This document shows, in pieces, positions 6,011 through 39,534 of a stretch of DNA of 39,534 nt. The position numbers and the translations under genes were made by a program. The DNA is from Ignavibacteria bacterium (GTDB lineage: Bacteria > Bacteroidota > Ignavibacteria > UBA10030): contig VGWB01000009.1 in NCBI GenBank assembly GCA_016873755.1, positions 1 to 39,534 on the forward strand, given 5' to 3'. Under the pieces are notes generated by a model, which did no database searches, was not told where the DNA came from, and saw nothing but the letters and a program-made list of their open reading frames with translations. Numbering within the stretch: the first letter of the stretch is position 1; each line of letters begins with the position of its first letter.

Positions 6011-8176
6011 TCAGTTTCCTTTGTCTTCTGAGGATGAACGTACGGCTGCACGGCCCCTTGCTCGTGTCCCTTTCGGCGGAAGCACGTGTTCCTCCGGTCG
6101 ATTCTGGAGAAGTTGAGGTCCGGCGGATCGTCTCCGTGACTGAAAGAAGGCCTTCAAGAGGATCTCAACATCGAGTGCGAGCGATTGATTCTTCGCGTAG
6201 TAAACATTGTACTGCTCGAGTTCATCCGCTGTGAGCGATCGGCTGCCCTGAAGCTGGGTAAGCCCCGTCAGCCCCGGTTTCCCCAGATACAGTCCTAGAC
6301 GTGCGCGCTCGGGCTCCTTCTCGCGGTCGACATGAGAGGGTTGCTGAACTGCTCCGATCGGTGGACCAACCAGGCTCAATCTGCCGGCAAGAACGGCTGG
6401 CAGCTGCAGGATGAATACTGACGGCGATGTTCCTTTGAGGAGCTTTTTGAAATATACAAAAGGATACGCCGAAATCAAGAGCAGCAGAGTGAACCCGAGG
6501 TCAAAGGCTCGTTTGAGCAGGCGATTCGACGTTTTCTCGAGGTTATACGTGATTTGAACGAGTGGCAGTTCATCAAGCGAATCGACGCTTCCCTTGCCGA
6601 TGATGACTTCAAGAGTGTTCGGTACGAGGTGAAAATTGACCGCATGCTCGCGCGTCCGATTGATGACGGAGAGGATGTCCGTGTACGACAGAACCTGCGT
6701 CGAGAAGATGACGTCGCTGATCTTCAAGTCATGAATGACCTTGCCGATGTTATCGATGCTACCCACGATCGACAGCCCCGCAATCTGATCACCGATTCGT
6801 CTCCGATTGAGGTCGACGAACCCGAGCACATCGTAGCCATCCCCGACCCGGCTGCGGAGGCGTCTCAACAGCTCCTGCGCAGATCGGTCCGTGCCAACGA
6901 TCAGAGTGCGACGGCCAAAGATTGTCTTGCGCCCTTCTGCAACGCTTTTGCCCAGCGCGCGCAGTATCAGCCGCCACGACGGCAGGAACACGGTGCTGAA
7001 GAACCCTGACAGGATCGTCACCCCACGGCTGAACCCGTAGTCCTTGAAAAAGAAGACGAGGGCGGAAATGAAGATATAGCTCAGCAGCGTCGCAACGATC
7101 GTTCGACTGAGCGACATGCGCCGGTGTGTGTAGACACCGGCTGAGTACAGGCTCACGACGACGATCACGGCGGGAACGGTGTAGACGATCGGATAGGCGT
7201 GGACCGGCAACCGAAAGACCGTCCCAAACCACACCAGCTCTCCAAGTATGACACCCAGATCAACCAAAATGATGTCGATGAGCGCAAACCGCAGCGGCTT
7301 GAAAAAGGCCTTCAGCATGGCGAGTCGCCAAGAGACGCCGATGGCCAATCGCAGAAACAGGGCGAAGAGGTGCGAGCGACTCAGGTGTTTCCTCACAAAG
7401 AGGTGCATGGCCTCGTAGAACGTGCGTATCTCGTCGAGGTTGCTTCGCTTCGTGCTCTCTCCCTTATAGTGTATGATCTTCGTTAAATGCACGTAGTAGT
7501 TTTTCCATCCTGCCTGCTGGATCCGGTAGCACCAATCGAGATCCTCCCCGTACATGAAGAATGCCTCATCCAGCCCACCGACCCGCTCGTATGCCTCGCG
7601 GCGCACCATCATAAAGGAGCCACTGACAGCGTCGATCTCGTACGTCTCATCGGGACTCAGGTATGTCAGATTGTATCGGCCGAACAACCGGGTGTTCGGG
7701 AAGAGCGAGCTCAGCCCCGACATTTTTGTAAACGCAACCCAGGGAGTGGGGAAACTCCTCCTGCACGCCAACTGAAACGTGCCGTCCGGATTGAGGATCT
7801 TGCAGCCTGCGAGGCCCACATCCGGATTCTCATCGAAGAATTTGACCATCACCCGCAGCGTATCCTCTTGCACGAGCGTATCGGGATTGATAAGGAGGAA
7901 GTACTTACCCCGCGCACGCTTGAGCGCAAGATTGTTCGCCTTTGCGAAGCCCAGGTTGGTCTTGCTGGCAGTCAACGTCGCAGAAGGGAAACGCCGCCGG
8001 ACCATTTCGACGCTTCCGTCATCCGAAGCGTTGTCGACAACGATGATTTCTCCCCTGACGCCTCTCATCGCCTTCTGCAGGGACACAAGCGCGTGATGAA
8101 GAAAATCACGCACGTTGTAGTTGACGATGATGATGGAGAGCTGCACAGAGCCACTATGTTGTCTCTTGCCACGCAT
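6011..8176 (-). CDS. Fusion of GT2 glycosyltransferase and degenerate polyprenyl-phosphate phosphoglycosyl transferase
   Basis: A 721-residue fusion. Residues about 12-260 are a GT-A family 2 glycosyltransferase ([19 protein letters not shown], a LLINPDT motif in place of Dx[10 protein letters not shown]). Residues about 290-410 hold several membrane helices. About 420-545 is a nucleotide-binding-like CoA_binding_3 domain ([14 protein letters not shown]). About 550-680 resembles the bacterial sugar transferase domain ([51 protein letters not shown]). The central part of that domain is missing: there is no KFRSM and no Asp-Glu before the SLVGPP motif, so transferase activity is doubtful. The ATG lies 9 bases from an inverted repeat and has no ribosome binding site; GTG at 8146 would give the more usual GT2 start ([11 protein letters not shown]). 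Confidence 0.85.
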
Positions 8177-8185
8177 GTAAGAATG

Positions 8186-8211
8186 TCACGCAAAGACGCA
8201 GAGCCGCAAAG
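8186..8211. repeat. Inverted terminal repeat, left arm
   Basis: A 26-base arm beginning tcacgcaaagacgcagagcc. It pairs with the reverse complement of 8319-8344, with mismatches at 4 positions. It encodes the tail of the 38-codon relic frame (SLRLCVFA then TGA), read on the minus strand. Confidence 0.8.
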
Positions 8212-8234
8212 AAAGCCCACAAGGCCCGCGATTT

Positions 8235-8302
8235 CTATTCTTCCTGAAGTCTGTTGACAATGCGCGTAATGCCATTATTTTGGCAATCTGATTCTCGGTC
8301 AT
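8235..8302 (-). pseudogene. Internally deleted GxxExxxY-family gene remnant
   Basis: Two pieces of one gene are joined. 8302-8279 reads MTENQIAK, the canonical GxxExxxY N-terminus, preceded by a good ribosome binding site (GGAAGGGGA). 8276-8235 reads NGITRIVNRLQEE plus stop TAG, the canonical C-terminus, in another frame. The roughly 100 central codons expected for this family are gone, including the GxxExxxY motif. The N-terminal frame runs through the junction and ends after 38 codons at 8186 within the terminal repeat. GxxExxxY proteins belong to the PD-(D/E)XK nuclease-like superfamily; this copy cannot be functional. Confidence 0.75.
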
Positions 8303-8318
8303 TCCCCTTCCTACCATC

Positions 8319-8344
8319 CTTGGCGGCTTCGCGCCTTTGCGTGA
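8319..8344. repeat. Inverted terminal repeat, right arm
   Basis: A 26-base arm beginning cttggcggcttcgcgccttt and ending gcgtga. It lies one base from the stop codon of the DPM1-like glycosyltransferase gene and is the inverted partner of 8186-8211. Confidence 0.8.
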
Positions 8345-8345
8345 G

Positions 8346-9068
8346 TCAATATCTCTTTCCTTTCACCAAGCTCTTGAACTTCAGCTTCCACACCATCCAG
8401 ACAGCTTCATAGACAATATGCTTGGACATCTTCGATTGACCGACCCGTCGATCGACGAAGACGATGGGCAGCTCGAACAGGCGAAATCCCTTCCTCCATG
8501 CACGGAAGTTCATTTCAATTTGAAATGCGTACCCGTTCGAGTGTATTGCGTCAAGGTCAATGCTCTCCAGTACCCTGCGGTTGAAGCACTTGAAGCCGCT
8601 CGTGGCATCTTTCACCGGCATACCCGTCACAACGCGTGTGTAGACGTTCGCCCCGTAGCTGAGGATCAGCCTGCGCAGCGGCCAGTTCACGACGTTGACA
8701 CCGGAGACGTACCGCGACCCGATAACGAGATCGTATTTCTCTGCTCGCGCGAGGAGGTTGGGGAGTTCGGCCGGGTCATGCGAGAAATCTGCATCCATCT
8801 CAAACACATAATCATAACCGTTCGCCAGCGCATACTTGAAACCTGTAACGTACGCCGTTCCCAGCCCCATCTTCCCCGGGCGCTCGAGCAGGTGGACTCT
8901 CGAATCCGCCTTCTGCAGCTCGCGAACGATCCCTGCGGTCCCATCCGGGGAGTTGTCGTCAACGATCAGCACCTCAAAATGCGTCCCAAGACCGAGAACC
9001 GTAGGGACTAGTTTCGGCAGATTATCCGCCTCATTGAAGGTCGGTATGACAACGAGACATCGTTTCAT
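8346..9068 (-). CDS. DPM1-like polyprenol-monophosphate glycosyltransferase (GT2)
   Basis: A 240-residue GT2 enzyme of the dolichyl/polyprenol-phosphate mannose synthase type. It shows VVIPTFNEADNLPKLV at the N-terminus, IVDDNSPDGT at about 35-43, the metal-binding MDADFSHDP at 91-99, GSRY at 117-120 and DATSGFKCFNR, all diagnostic for this group. Family members move a sugar from a nucleotide donor to a polyprenyl phosphate on the cytoplasmic face. It lacks the C-terminal membrane domain of some relatives. The open frame extends well upstream, but that extension is low-complexity, out-of-frame antisense of the DegT gene. The ATG at 9068, with AAGGAG 12 bases upstream, is the family start. The sugar donor is unknown. 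Confidence 0.92.
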   Translation of the reverse strand: MKRCLVVIPTFNEADNLPKLVPTVLGLGTHFEVLIVDDNSPDGTAGIVRELQKADSRVHLLERPGKMGLGTAYVTGFKYALANGYDYVFEMDADFSHDPAELPNLLARAEKYDLVIGSRYVSGVNVVNWPLRRLILSYGANVYTRVVTGMPVKDATSGFKCFNRRVLESIDLDAIHSNGYAFQIEMNFRAWRKGFRLFELPIVFVDRRVGQSKMSKHIVYEAVWMVWKLKFKSLVKGKRY

Positions 9069-9115
9069 CTTTGTAACGGGCTCCTTGTGCAGGGGACGGA
9101 TGAACAGTAAATGCT

Positions 9116-10237
9116 CTACCTGTCGAGCGCCTCTCGCACAGCCGCAACAATGTACTGCTGCTGTTCTTCTGTGAGTTCCGTATGCATGGGTAACGAGAGC
9201 ACCTCTGACGCGGCCTGCTCTGTGACGGGAAGCGACACCTGGGGACTGCCTACCTGCACATAGGCCTGCTGCCGATGGAGCGGCACGGGATAATAGATCG
9301 CATGAGGCACCTTCTGAGCTGCAAGATGCTGCGCGACGCCATCCCGACTCTTCACACGTAGAGTGTACTGGTGAAAGATGTGCCGAGCATACGGAGCTTC
9401 GTACGGCGTGACGACACCGGCCCCCTCGAACAGCCTGTTGTAGGTTCTCGCTGCGCTCCGGCGTGCTTCGTGCCAATTCTCCAGATGCTTGAGTTTGACA
9501 TTCAGGATCGCCGCCTGGAGAGTATCAAGCCGACTGTTCACCCCGAGGATCTCGTGGTAGTAGCGCTTCTTCGAGCCGTGCACGACGATCATTCGAGCTT
9601 TTCCAGCTACTTCGGCATCATTCGTCACAACCATTCCCGCGTCTCCGAACGCACCGAGGTTCTTACTCGGAAAGAAACTGATGCATCCCACCGTTCCTAG
9701 ACCGCCGACTTTCTTCCCCTTGTATTCGGCACCCATCGCTTGTGCGACATCCTCGATGATCGGTATCCCGTGCTTTGCGGCTGTCTCGATGATGGGATCC
9801 ATGTCCGCTGACTGCCCATAGAGATGGACCGGCAGGATGGCCTTCGTCTTCCTGGTGATCGCGGCGTCGATATGTCCGGGATTCAAATTGAATGTGAGGG
9901 GATCGATATCAACATACAGCGGCTTCGCGCCTAGGAAAACGATCGTCTCCGTCGTTGCGACGAATGTGAACGGCGTCGTGATGACCTCATCCCCCGGGCC
10001 GATGCCCAGAGCCATCATCGCTACCAGCAATGCATCCGTCCCGGACGCGCAGCCAACAGCGTATCTCGTGCCGAGATACGACGCGGCGGCAGCCTCGAAT
10101 TCGCCGACCTCTCTTCCCAGAATATATTGGCCCGAATCGAGCACGCGGTGAACGGCCTCATCGATTTCAGGTTTGATCTTCTGGTACTGCGTGACCAGAT
10201 CTACCATCTGCAGCTTCGGTGGATTCATCTTAGGCAT
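9116..10237 (-). CDS. DegT/DnrJ/EryC1/StrS-family sugar aminotransferase
   Basis: A 373-residue PLP-dependent aminotransferase. The PLP-binding Lys is at about residue 192 in SFFPSKNLGAFGDAG; IEDVAQAMGA at 161-170 and ASGTDAL at 64-70 are the other cofactor motifs. The family aminates keto-sugars on nucleotide carriers. In this locus the likely substrate comes from RmlB (dTDP-4-keto-6-deoxyglucose, possibly isomerised by the cupin), though a WbpE-like role on a UDP-keto sugar is equally possible from sequence alone. ATG at 10237 is preceded by GGGAGAGG and overlaps the last 8 bases of the phosphoglycosyl transferase gene. Confidence 0.93.
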   Translation of the reverse strand: MPKMNPPKLQMVDLVTQYQKIKPEIDEAVHRVLDSGQYILGREVGEFEAAAASYLGTRYAVGCASGTDALLVAMMALGIGPGDEVITTPFTFVATTETIVFLGAKPLYVDIDPLTFNLNPGHIDAAITRKTKAILPVHLYGQSADMDPIIETAAKHGIPIIEDVAQAMGAEYKGKKVGGLGTVGCISFFPSKNLGAFGDAGMVVTNDAEVAGKARMIVVHGSKKRYYHEILGVNSRLDTLQAAILNVKLKHLENWHEARRSAARTYNRLFEGAGVVTPYEAPYARHIFHQYTLRVKSRDGVAQHLAAQKVPHAIYYPVPLHRQQAYVQVGSPQVSLPVTEQAASEVLSLPMHTELTEEQQQYIVAAVREALDR

Positions 10238-32259: not shown

Positions 32260-35200
32260 CTACGGCTGGATAGCAACGCGAACATCGAGACCTCCCTCGT
32301 TCGTCGTTGAGCCGGGTATGCGGGATCCACCCGCATCAGGTTTCAGTTTCGAGTACTTGTAATAGATGGATGCCGTCACGCGCGAGCTGAGGATGTAACG
32401 AATTCTCGGCTCGATGCTCGTGCGGCTCGAACCCTCCAACGGCGTCCCGTCCTTCTTGAAGTTGACGGCTTTCAGGTCGTACACCCTCCGAGAGTCCTTC
32501 CGGTAGCTGAACGTGAAACTCATTTGAAGATCGTTTGAGAGGGAGAGACCGAAGAACGGGATCTCGAATCCCTGTCGCGAGTAGTCTGCGGAGACCGCTA
32601 TCTCGGTCGATCCGGATTCGACGATGTTCTGGGCTGAAGGGGTGAGATCGTAGCTCGTCGAAGTCCCCAATCTGAAGTTCATGCCGAAATTCCCTTTCAG
32701 CAGCTGCTTGAACGTGACACTGACGCCCAGAAGCGGCGAGAACTGCTGAGTGATCTGCTGACTCTCGGTGACCTCGTCGCCTGTCGGAGAGATCTTCCAC
32801 CTGCGCTTATAGCCGGATTGGAAGCTATGATCGAGGCTCACCCGCGTAGCAAAGCTTTCAAACAGCGGGAGCTTTTCCAGGCCGTCCCACCGCAGGGTCC
32901 AGTTCGGCCTCGGCCAGATGCTGCCGATCAACTTTCGAGTGAAGGGAAGTGCTTCCATGCCGTTCTCGAATGCTTCTGCCAGTTTTGCATCGTTCGAGCG
33001 CGCGTCGTTCTTGTCGATGCGCAGTTTCTCATACCCTTTCTGCACATCCTCAATGCTCGTTCGAAAGAACTTGAAGAACAGGACAGGCGGGAAGGAGAGA
33101 TACGAGCGATCCACGTCGCCGCTGATGAGCTTGTTCGTCTCAAAGGCAACACCAAGAGAGTCCGACTGCAGCGTTCGGTTAGCACTATACGACCAGCCGA
33201 CATTCCAGTTGATCTCCAGGCTTGCGCCCTCCCAGAGTGGACGCGACGTGCGCATCGAGATCCGGTTGCTCTGTGAATAGTTGTCAGTAAGGTTGCCGCC
33301 CGGCGCACGTATGCCGGGAACGCTGTAGCCCGTGATGAACGGGAATTTCCCTTTCGTTTTGATGATGACATCGCCATGCGGATTGGACGCCAATCCGAGC
33401 TGGTACATCAGCGAGGGACCGTAGTCCGGAAGGGAGTTCTGAAAGAACGGTACGCGCTCGAAAAGATTTGAGAATCCCGGCCGCCCGATCACCCCACTGT
33501 TCTGGCTCCTGTTCTGTTGAGTAAAGGAGACGCTGAACTTCTCGAAGTCAAAGACTGGAATCTTGAAAAGAATTCGAGTAGCACGGTCCAATCCATCGAG
33601 GAGATTGAACGGCTTGGAGGGTGCTGTCGTGTCCTCCGGGGGTGGTGTGACCGTCGGGGGCTTCGCCGGCCAGATCTCATTGCCGATGGTTTGGAGGTTC
33701 ACGTCAAACGTCACCGAGAGATTTCCGGTATTGCCGGCGGACTTCCCGAGCGCGCCGGCCTGGGGATTGTTCGTCCAGTCGTACCGCGCACCGTAGCGTG
33801 CGGTGGCTGAGAGAATCTTGTCGAGCTTGAGGATCGGCGGTATCATAATTCGAGGATTCAGGGTAATCGTTTGACCGTAGCTGAGATCTGTGCCAAAGTC
33901 AATGAGCTTGGCCTTGCCGAACATATCACCCAGAATTGCTCCGAACGAACGCTGGCGACCGAGCGAGTCTGTCTCGAAATTCAGAAGGCTGCTCTGAACG
34001 TCCACCGCGTAATCCATCCCCAGATTCAGCAGGCCCGCTTCGGTAAGCTGCCACGAGAAATTGAGCGAGCGACTCGATGCGAAGTTGCGAACGACGGGCT
34101 TCGCTGCTGTCTGGTTACGAGCCTGTTCAACGGTCTGTGCCCGAGCGAGCGTTGCCGAGACGTTGAATCCTCTCGGCGCATAGTGAACTTTCAGATCCTT
34201 CCACGGCTTGAAAAGGAAGAAGTCGCCAAAAATGGAGAATGGAGAGACATAGGCCTTGTCGCTAAACTGGAGCCCATACCCGACCCGGCTGTTCCATTGC
34301 CACTGGTTGAACGATTCAATGGTTGGACTCCTCCGCGTGGTTTGGGTATAGGAATACGCGAAGGAAAGCCGGTTGATGGTCTCCCTCACGAGCCAGTGGT
34401 CGACGGGGATGTTCAATTTTATGTTGGGAAGACTATAAGTTTCTGTCACGTTGACGGTCTGCGCCTGAAGACGGACCGCCTCTTCGATCTTGTTCGCTTC
34501 GGCATCGGATTCTCCCTTATCTTTGGCGATGTCCGCCGTTCGCTGTGCTGCTTGACCGACAGGTATGTCCGTTCCGGGTACGTATCTGGGATTCTGTATC
34601 TGCTCGACGTGCGAGTACGTGAACGACAGACTCGTTCCGGTCCAGCTGCGAGGGAAAAACCGCTCAAATCCGATCGAAGTCGAGAGCGCCCAGTTTCTGT
34701 CTGTGTTCCGTGTCCCGAACCGGTCCTCCAGAGCGTGGAAGTTGGGGTCACGTTGGGTCATGTTCACAGAGATCGTCGCGACGTCCGCGAGCTTAACGGT
34801 CGTATCGAAGCGATACGCCCATCCCGGCGTGTCATCCACTTCCGTTAAGCGGAGCTCGTTAACCCACACCTCGCCGGTCACTTCGCCAGCCCCCTTGCCT
34901 TCAGGATTTGTAACCCCGATAACAATCAGCCTGACATTCGTCAATGTCGGATTGCCACGAACCTGGTAGCTCGATCCCGGAGGTCCACTGGCTGCAGGGA
35001 CGCTCGCGCTGAGCGCCTGGATGCTATCACGGCCCAGCTTGATGGCCGTGATCTCGCTGAACGGTATGTTCAGTTCGTTCTGCGGATCCCACCCCGGGCG
35101 GATGGGGGCCCGGTACTCATAGTAGTTCAGCGAGTCCGATCCGAACCGGATGAAGAGCTCCAGATCATAGTCGGTCGTGTCGCGGAATCGCATGCTGAAT

Positions 35201-38200
35201 CCCGGCCGATCATCTCCGTGCACGAACATCTTCATCGCACGGTAGCTGAAAAGGTCGAGAGGGCGCACCGGATAGCGCTTCAGGGCTTGCCTCGATTCTC
35301 CGTCCTTCAAACCGCTGACAACGAGGTTGAGTGATTGCTCGTTGAGCCGTATGTCGAGATCCGGGCGAGTCCGATCCTTGGCAAGCGGCAATCCGGGTGG
35401 GGACGCATAATCGGGATTATCCTCCCTGTTCACGACGCTGACACGGAACGTGCTGTCGTTCTTGACGAGTTCCTCCCACTGGTTCCCGACCAGGCTAAAC
35501 TCCGCGATACGAACCAGAACCTCATCCGTTGCCCCTGTCATCCACAGACGGACACCCTCAACGGTTGAGAAGCTCGGCTCGCCGACTTTGCGCGTGTACT
35601 CATTGAGCGGCAACCGGATCTGGTACCACCGGTTAGCACCGCCTGTGACCATCTTCTGGAACTCGGCGCTGGTTGTGTCGAGCGAAATCTCATACTCGTA
35701 GTAGCTGTTGACCCGGTCGAGGACGTTGTTGCGGTTGATGTCCTCAGTATCGGGGAACCGCCCAGCCTCACTGTTCGAGTTGCCCTCCGTGCCGTTTACG
35801 CCGCTGTAGTCTTCGGGTCGCAGCGAGCCCAACACCGGCCTCGACCAGTTGTCACCGGAGGGATCGCCGGAGTACTGTGGGTACTTTCGGACGAATTCTG
35901 CATAGGCCGTGCGCTCCTGATCGTCGGCGAGTCCGTCCATTCCGACGTCTTCACCGACACCGAGAATTCCATTGCGGATTCCGCCATCGAGACCATCTTC
36001 CGTGTGGAGCTTTGCCGGTTCGCCGGGCCGATTTGGGATGACCATCTCTCCGATGATCCCGAGATCGATGTTCAGTTTGACCGTCGGTTGTATCTGATCG
36101 AGTCGCACCCACAACTCGATGAAGTTGATGTTTTCGTCGAGGAGATTCGTCGCCGTCGAGCCGATGAGCGTCTGTATTCCTCCCCAAGCATTGCGGCGAT
36201 TTGCCAACAGCTTTGTCTCAAGATCCATCGAGTAATTGAACCTTCCGCGATCCTGTGGCTTGAAGTGCAGGTTCAAGACCGTTATCTGGTTCTCCTCAGG
36301 CCGCACGCTCTTGTTCGGACGTAGATCCGTGGGACCGATGTCACTCGGAAGGACATTGTACCACGCGAACCTCCCTTTGTACTCACTCTTTTCATAGAGC
36401 GTCAGCTTGGCCTGATCCTCAAGCGGGTGCATATACTCCGGAACAGCTGCCTCACGCCACGCACCAAAGTTAACGCTCATGGGAATGGGCCGACGGGCTC
36501 CCTCAAAGTCATCGATGTAGGCGATGCCCTTTCCGGCGTCCTGAGAAATCGGACTCTTGCGCGTGTTGGGATCCGGGAGCATGTATGCACCTTCACCACG
36601 CAGGGTAAGGGTCGACGGGGCGTTCGTCTGGATACCCGGCAGCCAATTCAGCGCACGTGTAAGGAAATCGAGCTCGAAGTCTGTCCCGCCGTCGATGCCA
36701 AAGATGGTGTTGCTGATAGGCTCCTCGCCAAGCCTCACCTTGTCGCTGAGCGTCTGCTGGTTCAGGTTCATTACCGTGAAGCCAAACGCCGATTTCTTCC
36801 CCAAGTTGAGTTCACCGCGGGCACCGAGGAGTGATTTGGAGGCAAGCTGGAAGAGGTCGTTCGCTTCGTATTGGATCTGCAAATTCGCCCCGGGAACGAG
36901 CAAACTCTGATTCTTTATGTTCACCTGGCCCGAGATGTAGTCGACCGTATAGTCGATGTTGGGCGCTGCCTGCTGGCCATTCACGATGACCTTGACGCTG
37001 TTCTCGACGACATTGAATCCGATCGAATACGTTGCTGCGATCGAGGAGGTAATTGTGCCCTTGATCAGGAACTTGTTCCGCTGGCTGTTGGAGGCACCAT
37101 TGAATGTGGTGTCGTAGACCTCGTGGAATGTGAAGGAATCGGCATCCGCGATCGTTCGCCCTCGAGCCAGGAAGTACTGTCTGATGCCTTCACGGAACGG
37201 CTCAGTCCGAGGAAAGATCAATTCTCCGCGCGCCTCGTCGATCGTCAAGCCGGGCGAGTAGTCGAACTTCCCGTCAGGTGGGGATCCGGGGTTTTCTCCG
37301 TATCGATCAAGCCCAAACATCTCGATCAGGTTGTAAGCTCCGAGGATATTGTCCTGCGGTTCGGTACCAGGAACCTCATACAGGATCTTCAGCTCGAATC
37401 CCTCCTTCTTGATGCCGCGCCCGCCGAGCGGATAGATGTTCTTCAGCATCATCCGCCAAGCTGTTCTGAATTGCGGTCCAAGCCTCTGGGGTCGCACGAG
37501 CTTCATAATAAGCTTCAACGTTTTCGACGTGTCGCGCGAACCGAAATTTCCGACGTCAATACTCTTACGCGTGTCCGTCGGGTCAGGCAACGTATATGCA
37601 ACAGCAACAGCTTGCTCCGGCTGGATCGCGCGGTTAAGCGAAATGTAGCCGGCATACTCGTGGAAGGTGTAATCGGAGCCCGGATCCAGACGGATGAAGC
37701 GTCCAACTTCAACCTCGCCCGGAACGGCACTGAACTCCGTACCCCGGGCAGGCAGGTCATTCTGCGTCTGTCTGACCCTCTGCTGATCAAGAAAGGCCAC
37801 GACATCCCGCTCGTTTGGATCCTCGTTACCGATTCGCGTCACCCACACCTCAATGTCGCGGATTTGCTTGAGCGCGTTGACGATCGGAGGGATATTCAGA
37901 TACGCCGAGTCAAACCAGGCGATGTACGACGTATCGACGAAGTAGTGATCTCGAGAGTAGTCGGTCGCGCGCTTTACAAAGGGAGTCGGCCTGCCGCCGC
38001 CAGAAACTGACAACTCCCTGATCTGACCTTTTTTTTGCGACGCGACGGTTGTCAGCTTCAAGGGCCCAAACTGGAACCCCGCCTTAATCCCAAACAAAGC
38101 CTGACTGCTCGAAATGAAGGACGAATTCGTGGTGAGAGAGACGTTTCCTGCCTCGACGCTCTGAACAATATCGTCTTCATAACCGGTGTACCGAACCTTC

Positions 38201-39189
38201 AGCTGGTTCTCATACTCAAATGTTCGCTGCGTGTTCCAATCGGCATCTATCTTGAGCTTATCGCCGATCTCCCCCTTGACGTTGACCTGAACCTCCTGAC
38301 TGAAATCCGGCTCATTCCGACTTTGGCCAAGGGGGTTATTGACGAAAAGATCCGACTTGGTGTTGCGGAATGCGCCGTGGATGTCAACCGCACCGTTGAT
38401 TTGCAGCCGGATGATATTTGGCCCGAAAATACTGAACAGCGGGTTCTTGGGGACAGGTATCTCGATGTTCGTCACCTGACCGAAGAGATCTCCCAGTCCT
38501 TTCTTTTTCTCGGCCTCGATTTCATATGCCTGCGCGAGCGTTTCCCAGTTTTTCCGAATCGTCTGCCGCATCCGCAGTCGCCTGTACTCCTCAAAGGTTA
38601 GATCGAGCGGAATGCGAGTATCGGCCTTGTCAAACGTCCGTCGGACACGGTAGACATATCGGGATGAGTCGAGATCGTGCTGCATGCGCACAAGAGCCGG
38701 GTCAGGCAGGTACAGCGGGTGAGATTTCGGCTGGATCGCGTCGACCATGGCCGCGTCCCGCCTGACGTGTCCAAAGTGCTCGAGGCGCGCTGACGAATCG
38801 CGCGGCAGAGCGCGGATCGAATCAAGCATGCGTGCCGCGGTCTGGCTCACCGAGGTCGTGTCAATTGAAGCGCGCCGTATCTCAAGTGCGCGGGCGCGGC
38901 GGGAAAGAACACCGGTACGCTTCGGCGTCGTGTCCTGAACCTGGACAGCCATAGCCGAGCCGCCTGGCACATCCTCAGACGCAAAAACCGCGACAGAAAG
39001 CGCGCCGGGTCCTCGCGCCACTGAGGCAGAAGATGCCGGAGTGCTTAAGGAGTGGTCGCTGGGAGGAAGAACAGAACCGAGGCAAGTGATGAGAATGGAA
39101 ACAGCGATCAACAACAGCATCCGTCCTGCCAACCGCGGCGGAATGCGTTCCGGCACCCTTGAATTCCGTGATTCGCTACCGTTTCTCAC
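32260..39189 (-). CDS. sprA: SprA/Sov: giant outer-membrane translocon of type IX secretion
   Basis: About 2309 residues, close to the roughly 2400 of Flavobacterium SprA. Such proteins form the very large beta-barrel pore of the T9SS. After a signal-anchor-like segment (RMLLLIAVSILITCLGS) and a low-complexity stretch, the sequence is long runs of amphipathic strands with SprA-type repeats (INGAVDIHGAFRN, VNVKGEIGDKLKIDADWN) and ends in strand-rich, aromatic sequence. The start is uncertain: the open frame reaches a GTG at 39234 without a ribosome binding site; GTG at 39189 has AGGGG 5 bases upstream and leaves a basic stretch before the hydrophobic segment, so I chose it; ATG at 39120 is a third option. 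It lies 115 bases from porX. Confidence 0.94.
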   Translation of the reverse strand: MRNGSESRNSRVPERIPPRLAGRMLLLIAVSILITCLGSVLPPSDHSLSTPASSASVARGPGALSVAVFASEDVPGGSAMAVQVQDTTPKRTGVLSRRARALEIRRASIDTTSVSQTAARMLDSIRALPRDSSARLEHFGHVRRDAAMVDAIQPKSHPLYLPDPALVRMQHDLDSSRYVYRVRRTFDKADTRIPLDLTFEEYRRLRMRQTIRKNWETLAQAYEIEAEKKKGLGDLFGQVTNIEIPVPKNPLFSIFGPNIIRLQINGAVDIHGAFRNTKSDLFVNNPLGQSRNEPDFSQEVQVNVKGEIGDKLKIDADWNTQRTFEYENQLKVRYTGYEDDIVQSVEAGNVSLTTNSSFISSSQALFGIKAGFQFGPLKLTTVASQKKGQIRELSVSGGGRPTPFVKRATDYSRDHYFVDTSYIAWFDSAYLNIPPIVNALKQIRDIEVWVTRIGNEDPNERDVVAFLDQQRVRQTQNDLPARGTEFSAVPGEVEVGRFIRLDPGSDYTFHEYAGYISLNRAIQPEQAVAVAYTLPDPTDTRKSIDVGNFGSRDTSKTLKLIMKLVRPQRLGPQFRTAWRMMLKNIYPLGGRGIKKEGFELKILYEVPGTEPQDNILGAYNLIEMFGLDRYGENPGSPPDGKFDYSPGLTIDEARGELIFPRTEPFREGIRQYFLARGRTIADADSFTFHEVYDTTFNGASNSQRNKFLIKGTITSSIAATYSIGFNVVENSVKVIVNGQQAAPNIDYTVDYISGQVNIKNQSLLVPGANLQIQYEANDLFQLASKSLLGARGELNLGKKSAFGFTVMNLNQQTLSDKVRLGEEPISNTIFGIDGGTDFELDFLTRALNWLPGIQTNAPSTLTLRGEGAYMLPDPNTRKSPISQDAGKGIAYIDDFEGARRPIPMSVNFGAWREAAVPEYMHPLEDQAKLTLYEKSEYKGRFAWYNVLPSDIGPTDLRPNKSVRPEENQITVLNLHFKPQDRGRFNYSMDLETKLLANRRNAWGGIQTLIGSTATNLLDENINFIELWVRLDQIQPTVKLNIDLGIIGEMVIPNRPGEPAKLHTEDGLDGGIRNGILGVGEDVGMDGLADDQERTAYAEFVRKYPQYSGDPSGDNWSRPVLGSLRPEDYSGVNGTEGNSNSEAGRFPDTEDINRNNVLDRVNSYYEYEISLDTTSAEFQKMVTGGANRWYQIRLPLNEYTRKVGEPSFSTVEGVRLWMTGATDEVLVRIAEFSLVGNQWEELVKNDSTFRVSVVNREDNPDYASPPGLPLAKDRTRPDLDIRLNEQSLNLVVSGLKDGESRQALKRYPVRPLDLFSYRAMKMFVHGDDRPGFSMRFRDTTDYDLELFIRFGSDSLNYYEYRAPIRPGWDPQNELNIPFSEITAIKLGRDSIQALSASVPAASGPPGSSYQVRGNPTLTNVRLIVIGVTNPEGKGAGEVTGEVWVNELRLTEVDDTPGWAYRFDTTVKLADVATISVNMTQRDPNFHALEDRFGTRNTDRNWALSTSIGFERFFPRSWTGTSLSFTYSHVEQIQNPRYVPGTDIPVGQAAQRTADIAKDKGESDAEANKIEEAVRLQAQTVNVTETYSLPNIKLNIPVDHWLVRETINRLSFAYSYTQTTRRSPTIESFNQWQWNSRVGYGLQFSDKAYVSPFSIFGDFFLFKPWKDLKVHYAPRGFNVSATLARAQTVEQARNQTAAKPVVRNFASSRSLNFSWQLTEAGLLNLGMDYAVDVQSSLLNFETDSLGRQRSFGAILGDMFGKAKLIDFGTDLSYGQTITLNPRIMIPPILKLDKILSATARYGARYDWTNNPQAGALGKSAGNTGNLSVTFDVNLQTIGNEIWPAKPPTVTPPPEDTTAPSKPFNLLDGLDRATRILFKIPVFDFEKFSVSFTQQNRSQNSGVIGRPGFSNLFERVPFFQNSLPDYGPSLMYQLGLASNPHGDVIIKTKGKFPFITGYSVPGIRAPGGNLTDNYSQSNRISMRTSRPLWEGASLEINWNVGWSYSANRTLQSDSLGVAFETNKLISGDVDRSYLSFPPVLFFKFFRTSIEDVQKGYEKLRIDKNDARSNDAKLAEAFENGMEALPFTRKLIGSIWPRPNWTLRWDGLEKLPLFESFATRVSLDHSFQSGYKRRWKISPTGDEVTESQQITQQFSPLLGVSVTFKQLLKGNFGMNFRLGTSTSYDLTPSAQNIVESGSTEIAVSADYSRQGFEIPFFGLSLSNDLQMSFTFSYRKDSRRVYDLKAVNFKKDGTPLEGSSRTSIEPRIRYILSSRVTASIYYKYSKLKPDAGGSRIPGSTTNEGGLDVRVAIQP

Positions 39190-39534
39190 GCAACCCCTGT
39201 TGAACCTATACCTAACACAATCACGAAACAACACACTTCAAGATATCAGCACCCTGCTGCGGTAGCGAATTGATCGATAGATCTCCAACACCTGATAAGG
39301 GGTCCGGTCTTTGTTGATGCGAGAACTTAGCAAAAAGGAAAATGAATATCAAGTCAGAGCCTGTTTCCCGCGGCGTTTCCGTGAGCGTGTCTGTCACGCC
39401 CCCACAAGTTCGGAGCAGGCACACCTTTGAAGCGATTTCACTGCTCGGAAGCGGTCACGGAATCCTGCCCGCCAGTTTGTCGACTCGCTCGGCAGACGGG
39501 GATCCGTGGTGGCCCCGAGAAGAATGAAACGAGG
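39190..39534. other. Region upstream of sprA, no gene recognised
   Basis: The 345 bases hold the sprA promoter (39324-39352) and a leader of about 130 bases. A plus-strand frame of 61 codons at 39342-39527 has AAGGA before its ATG, but its translation has no recognisable family and it runs over the promoter on the other strand, so I do not call it a gene. On the minus strand a frame open from the window edge ends at a TGA near 39399; it may be the end of an upstream gene but is too short to judge. Confidence 0.4.
39324..39352 (-). promoter_or_regulatory. Promoter of sprA
   Basis: On the minus strand: -35 TTGATA (39352-39347), 17-base T-rich spacer, -10 TAAGTT (39329-39324). It gives a leader of about 130 bases to the preferred GTG start. 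Same geometry as the three other promoters in the window. Confidence 0.6.

Follow-up and report, generated by a model that had tools for sequence, protein, structure and literature searches.

Two described systems stand closest to the element reported here. In the first, REP/REPIN palindromes accompany RAYT (HUH tyrosine) transposases, in arrangements described as REPtrons and TIRtrons (PMC3733652, PMC3116915). The second is the S23-encoding intervening sequence of 23S rRNA, which is roughly 450-bp long, carries a small ORF and has inverted ends; its mobility was already suspected, and in Coxiella three tandem heptamers are located ahead of the start codon (PMC4990558).

GxxExxY elements, in which a gene of the GxxExxY family lies between inverted arms, resemble the REP/RAYT systems in that a small gene is placed within inverted repeats, gene-less palindromes are dispersed in the same genome, and the repeat type is tied to the protein. 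They differ in having a PD-(D/E)XK instead of an HUH fold and arms in which three or four heptamers form an array. Membership in the REP/RAYT group was rejected: an HUH tyrosine transposase is absent, and the full copies belong to PF13366 (PD-(D/E)XK family) with a Cas4-like predicted fold. The 23S rRNA intervening sequence shares with GxxExxY elements their size, small ORF, inverted ends and three tandem heptamers, whereas the GxxExxY protein and its units are different, the elements are intergenic, and no RNA-level pairing constraint was seen in them.

The locus under study lies in the window, i.e., the whole analyzed stretch of 39,534 nucleotides from an Ignavibacteria bacterium (contig VGWB01000009.1). 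It is a relic with a length of 159 bases that fills the gap between two polysaccharide genes, both of glycosyltransferase type, and is bounded by an inverted repeat of 26 nt (8186-8211 / 8319-8344; 22/26 matching, 85% complementary, 107 nt apart). Its features are the following.

8346..9476, minus strand: glycosyltransferase family 2 gene before the relic; its stop codon is 1 base from the relic
8186..8344, minus strand: whole relic, a GxxExxY element that has lost ~319 bp from the middle of the gene, from end-to-end alignment with copies L024, L025, L026 and L179
8319..8344, minus strand: upstream arm TCACGCAAAG-GCGCGAAG-CCGCCAAG, three heptamer units with spacers 1,1
8279..8302, minus strand: gene start, first 8 codons MTENQIAK, aligned with MTENEIAK of L024
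8277..8278, minus strand: junction of the deletion, position approximate; relative to L025, ~319 bp are absent, and the breakpoint is somewhere within ATAAT/GGCATT
8235..8276, minus strand: gene end, last 13 codons NGITRIVNRLQEE and TAG stop, in a frame other than that of the start
8186..8211, plus strand, read inward: downstream arm TCACGCAAAG-ACGCAGAG-CCGCAAAG, from inverted-repeat and unit-pattern matches
6011..8176, minus strand: gene after the relic with GT2, CoA-binding and bacterial sugar transferase domains; its start is 9 bases from the relic

The reading frame changes at the junction because the loss of ~319 bp is not a multiple of three. In frame 0 of the minus strand, AGGAAGGGGA is followed by MTENQIAK, with a purine-rich, ribosome-binding-like stretch ahead of these codons, and frame 2 ends in NGITRIVNRLQEE*. 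The arms, frames and neighbours thus confirmed the anatomy given in an earlier note on this DNA, namely inverted repeats around fused MTENQIAK and NGITRIVNRLQEE pieces between polysaccharide genes. The relic was also considered as an S23 intervening sequence and rejected as such, its position being between two glycosyltransferase genes and its remnants being those of GxxExxY. Elsewhere in the window, a very long ORF of 2324 codons was noted (32260-39234, minus strand).

As for the two peptide pieces, the earlier note had taken them for the start and end of a GxxExxY gene. The profile search with the 36-aa fused peptide gave no match, the GxxExxY (TIGR04256/PF13366) cut-off not being reached, and the family assignment therefore rests on alignment to full copies, which do pass this profile. 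L024, L025 and L026 are GxxExxY copies of genomes in the same family; the relic shares their arms, start and end and lacks ~319 bp between ATAAT and GGCATT, and its alignment scores against full copies were far above those of shuffles for most copies. The stretch NGITRIVNRLQEE-stop aligns with GISRVVNGLQEV* of L024 and with GITRIVNKL of L115. In addition, 9/21 GxxExxY elements with an ENxI start have TCACGC in both arms, as against 0/127 others; the relic has both traits, so that its subfamily fits its arm type. Full-length genes with arms of the relic type, whose existence had been postulated, occur in relatives (L024, L025, L026, L179).

The arms were further searched for with a strict degenerate pattern of three CRCNNAG units with spacers 1-3, the same pattern backwards serving as a control. 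It gave 24 matches in the 3.97 Mb genome, both relic arms among them, vs 3 for the control. Since both arms fit this pattern and the relic aligns lengthwise to full GxxExxY copies, the combination of arms and gene remnants is beyond chance. Judged by these alignments, the relic is the remnant of a GxxExxY gene and no working member of the family. Its own genome (G000) contains three GxxExxY genes, two full and one truncated, all with arms spelled differently from those of the relic; the truncated gene (L004, C52:422-595) still has its downstream arm.

The proposed likeness to MITEs holds in part. As in MITEs, the relic is internally deleted with its arms retained around a deleted parent gene. 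Unlike them, it is present as one 159-bp copy in its own genome, with no dispersed copies, and is therefore a dead deletion derivative and not an amplified MITE; the parent relation to a transposase is putative.

GxxExxY genes were present in 46/61 related genomes, with up to 12 copies in each; the genomes are mostly metagenome-assembled, one per species. Arms were counted as present when the inverted-repeat score around the gene was 15 or higher, with shifted windows of the same loci as a control, for 33 loci from the order and 77 from many phyla and archaea. This score was reached at 79% of the order loci (n=33; shifted windows, 1.1%) and at 88% of the cross-phylum loci (n=77; shifted windows, 4.5%). 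Both sides of the gene had two-unit inward arms at 23/33 and 46/80 loci vs 0/118 and 1/287 in the respective controls, and arms were found at 23/30 additional loci from named genomes, among which are several isolates. An arm typically consists of three tandem CRCNNAG-like heptamers with a period of 8-10 bp, and unit spacing was equal in both arms of the element in 50/60 cases (22% expected by chance). Mismatches in arm pairing were of the sense-wobble type in 256 cases and of the A.C type in 260; therefore, with no strand-specific wobble bias, the arms appear to matter as DNA, with selection or copying acting at the DNA level. At seven loci (L065, L067, L077, L130, L132, L134, L139), the GxxExxY gene is bordered on each side not by a single arm but by a whole small palindrome. 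Carriage of GxxExxY by plasmids or phages was considered and rejected, with matches in just 7/72,556 plasmids and one viral contig.

Orthologous sites in sister genomes were located using element flanks as probes, and they proved to be filled, empty or deletion-derived in different genomes, including the empty sites expected for a mobile unit. The L194 site is full in G041 and empty in G046 and G054; the L180 site is full in G025 and empty in G009 and G021; the L025 site is full in G009 and G025 and empty in G029, while G027 has a different palindrome there. At the L195 site, the element is full in G046, clean in five genomes of another family (g10), and represented in G041 by a deletion derivative with arms and a gene remnant, the nearest parallel to the window relic. 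The L193 and L181 sites have single-arm scars in sisters. The suggestion that GxxExxY genes are mobile units is thus borne out as regards the flanking arms and the presence and absence at orthologous sites, and it lacks the target duplication: neither this nor a defined outer end was evident for gene-bearing copies in the sister-site comparisons. Among the copies compared, no recent near-identical gene-bearing copies were found at two sites of one genome, and high-identity gene-bearing pairs checked by their flanks were at orthologous sites. Because GxxExxY genes lie nearly always between inverted arms and come and go at conserved sites, the family is probably the marker of a mobile element of a kind not yet described.

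The S23 genes of the same genomes also have inverted tandem arms (72% vs 3% in the control). Those at L145-L174, S23 / four-helix-bundle genes (TIGR02436) from the same order, have inverted arms of 7-8 bp units such as GTTAGCT, GAACAGT and similar. Arms common to S23 and GxxExxY were ruled out, as the units differ, CRCNNAG being found in 0/30 S23 cases.

Arrays of three units occur widely without a gene: 1934 were counted across 61 genomes vs 49 in the control, far outnumbering the 203 GxxExxY genes. The numbers of arrays and genes are correlated across genomes (rho 0.78; control arrays, 0.11), so that arms unconnected with GxxExxY genes, which would have spoken against the earlier note, were not what was found. 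The correlation was 0.55 after subtraction of two arrays (the arms) per gene and lost significance after subtraction of four; the partial correlation given S23 number was 0.71, and the 15 genomes with no GxxExxY gene have 0-5 arrays. In G000 and G031, many three-unit arrays sit within larger palindromes with outer repeats. A gene-less palindrome family of ~136 bp in G000 (L298-L303) is bounded by the outer ends CTAGAAACTC..CCGAAAACC, with arms of the CCACGAAG type inside; its members, at C5:34715, C7:372, C43:1316, C32:5568, C34:11306 and C16:2898, show 82-98% identity to the query copy. A second gene-less class in G031 (L312, L320, L328) is built of four units separated by spacers of 1,2,3, its outer ends being of the CTAGTGCCA type, and its unit spacing is that of the GxxExxY elements L175, L183 and L187.

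These gene-less elements bear on the main rival explanation, which we regard as unlikely: that the arm-gene-arm units are mobile and are moved by another enzyme, GxxExxY being cargo or a helper. The gene-less elements of G000 and G031 have CTAG-ended outer repeats, and when G031 was compared with G029, CTAG or a variant was found on both sides of filled sites and once at empty ones, an apparent duplication that is a mark of a transposase; L316 is the clearest case, the poorer empty-site alignments of L310 and L324 making their CTAG reading weaker. CTAG-type outer repeats were found on 0/127 gene-bearing copies, and because of this another enzyme may move the amplified gene-less elements. In addition, S23 genes of the same genomes have other arms, which makes one shared mover unlikely.

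The relation between arm type and protein also argues against a foreign mover. On the GxxExxY protein tree, which was a quick one under a simple model, the arm unit class changes 9 times vs 18.5 when shuffled (0/300). Shuffling of arms among elements of the same genome, the sole control for host phylogeny, breaks the correlation between arm and protein (4/1000 after orthologous copies were dropped); in the cross-phylum set alone, the value was 1/1000. For most of the protein identity range, arms are no more alike within one genome than between genomes. As far as the compared sequences go, arm type follows the GxxExxY protein and not the genome.

A second alternative, distinctly improbable in our opinion, is homing, in which gene-less palindromes are cut by the nuclease and acquire the gene through repair, gene-less arrays being targets and not derivatives. 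It agrees with the L197 site, where G046 has the full element and G041 a bare palindrome, and with G031, in which the gene-bearing L187 shares arm class and outer bases with the gene-less L320, L328 and L336. However, at several sites filled in one genome (L194, L180), the sisters are clean and have no palindrome, and the L195 derivative and the window relic keep gene remnants, which identifies them as deletions.

It is very improbable that GxxExxY is an immobile gene with arms acting as operators or transcription signals: the arms do lie near start and stop codons, but the presence and absence at orthologous sites, the great excess of gene-less arrays over genes and the inward symmetry of arms on both sides are against this. 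An RNA stem formed by the arms, as in 23S rRNA intervening sequences, is disfavoured to the point of being scarcely credible, since, despite the similar anatomy and three tandem heptamers of the Coxiella element (PMC4990558), arm pairing has no G.U bias and the examined sites lie between protein genes.

As for the GxxExxY protein itself, residues D67, K79 and Q91 are invariant and E77 is near-invariant. According to the Foldseek analysis of its AlphaFold2 model (pLDDT 95.7), the nearest structures are SSO0001 and lambda-type exonucleases (probability 0.96–0.99), the matches being moderate (best E 7e-3, TM about 0.5). SSO0001 is a Cas4 protein. The fold is thus predicted to be Cas4/lambda-exonuclease-like; GxxExxY resembles these PD-(D/E)XK nucleases in the predicted fold and the above residues, and differs in that a PDB search gave no sequence relative with a significant E-value. 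A literature search by family names and unit strings, within open-licence papers, found no paper giving a function for GxxExxY.

We consider it reasonably likely that the window contains a dead, internally deleted arm-GxxExxY-arm mobile unit whose arms served as recognition sites for its own nuclease-like protein acting with host repair. Such a unit consists of an arm, the GxxExxY gene and an inverted arm, each arm typically of three tandem degenerate CRCNNAG-type heptamers. Genome comparison shows that the unit inserts mostly in intergenic DNA, is inherited for a time and decays by internal deletion with the arms spared. Most likely, the element's own PD-(D/E)XK protein, predicted to be Cas4/lambda-exonuclease-like, recognizes the arms as double-stranded DNA. 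Every subfamily of the protein would read a unit spelling and spacing of its own, and the ends would be cut or processed by this protein while the unit is copied or inserted with the help of host repair.

More tentatively, and with somewhat less than even confidence, GxxExxY proteins across many bacterial phyla and archaea may be the movers of one class of mobile element, acting as Cas4-like PD-(D/E)XK nucleases that read subfamily-specific spaced heptamers in their own arms, S23 four-helix proteins being a parallel, unrelated system with heptamers of its own that would explain the rRNA intervening sequences. The co-variation of arm and protein, together with the presence and absence at orthologous sites, gives this widespread family a testable role. 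The link between GxxExxY and the arms accounts for a large class of dispersed palindromes, and the long-standing puzzle of rRNA intervening sequences that encode S23 can be set in the same frame.
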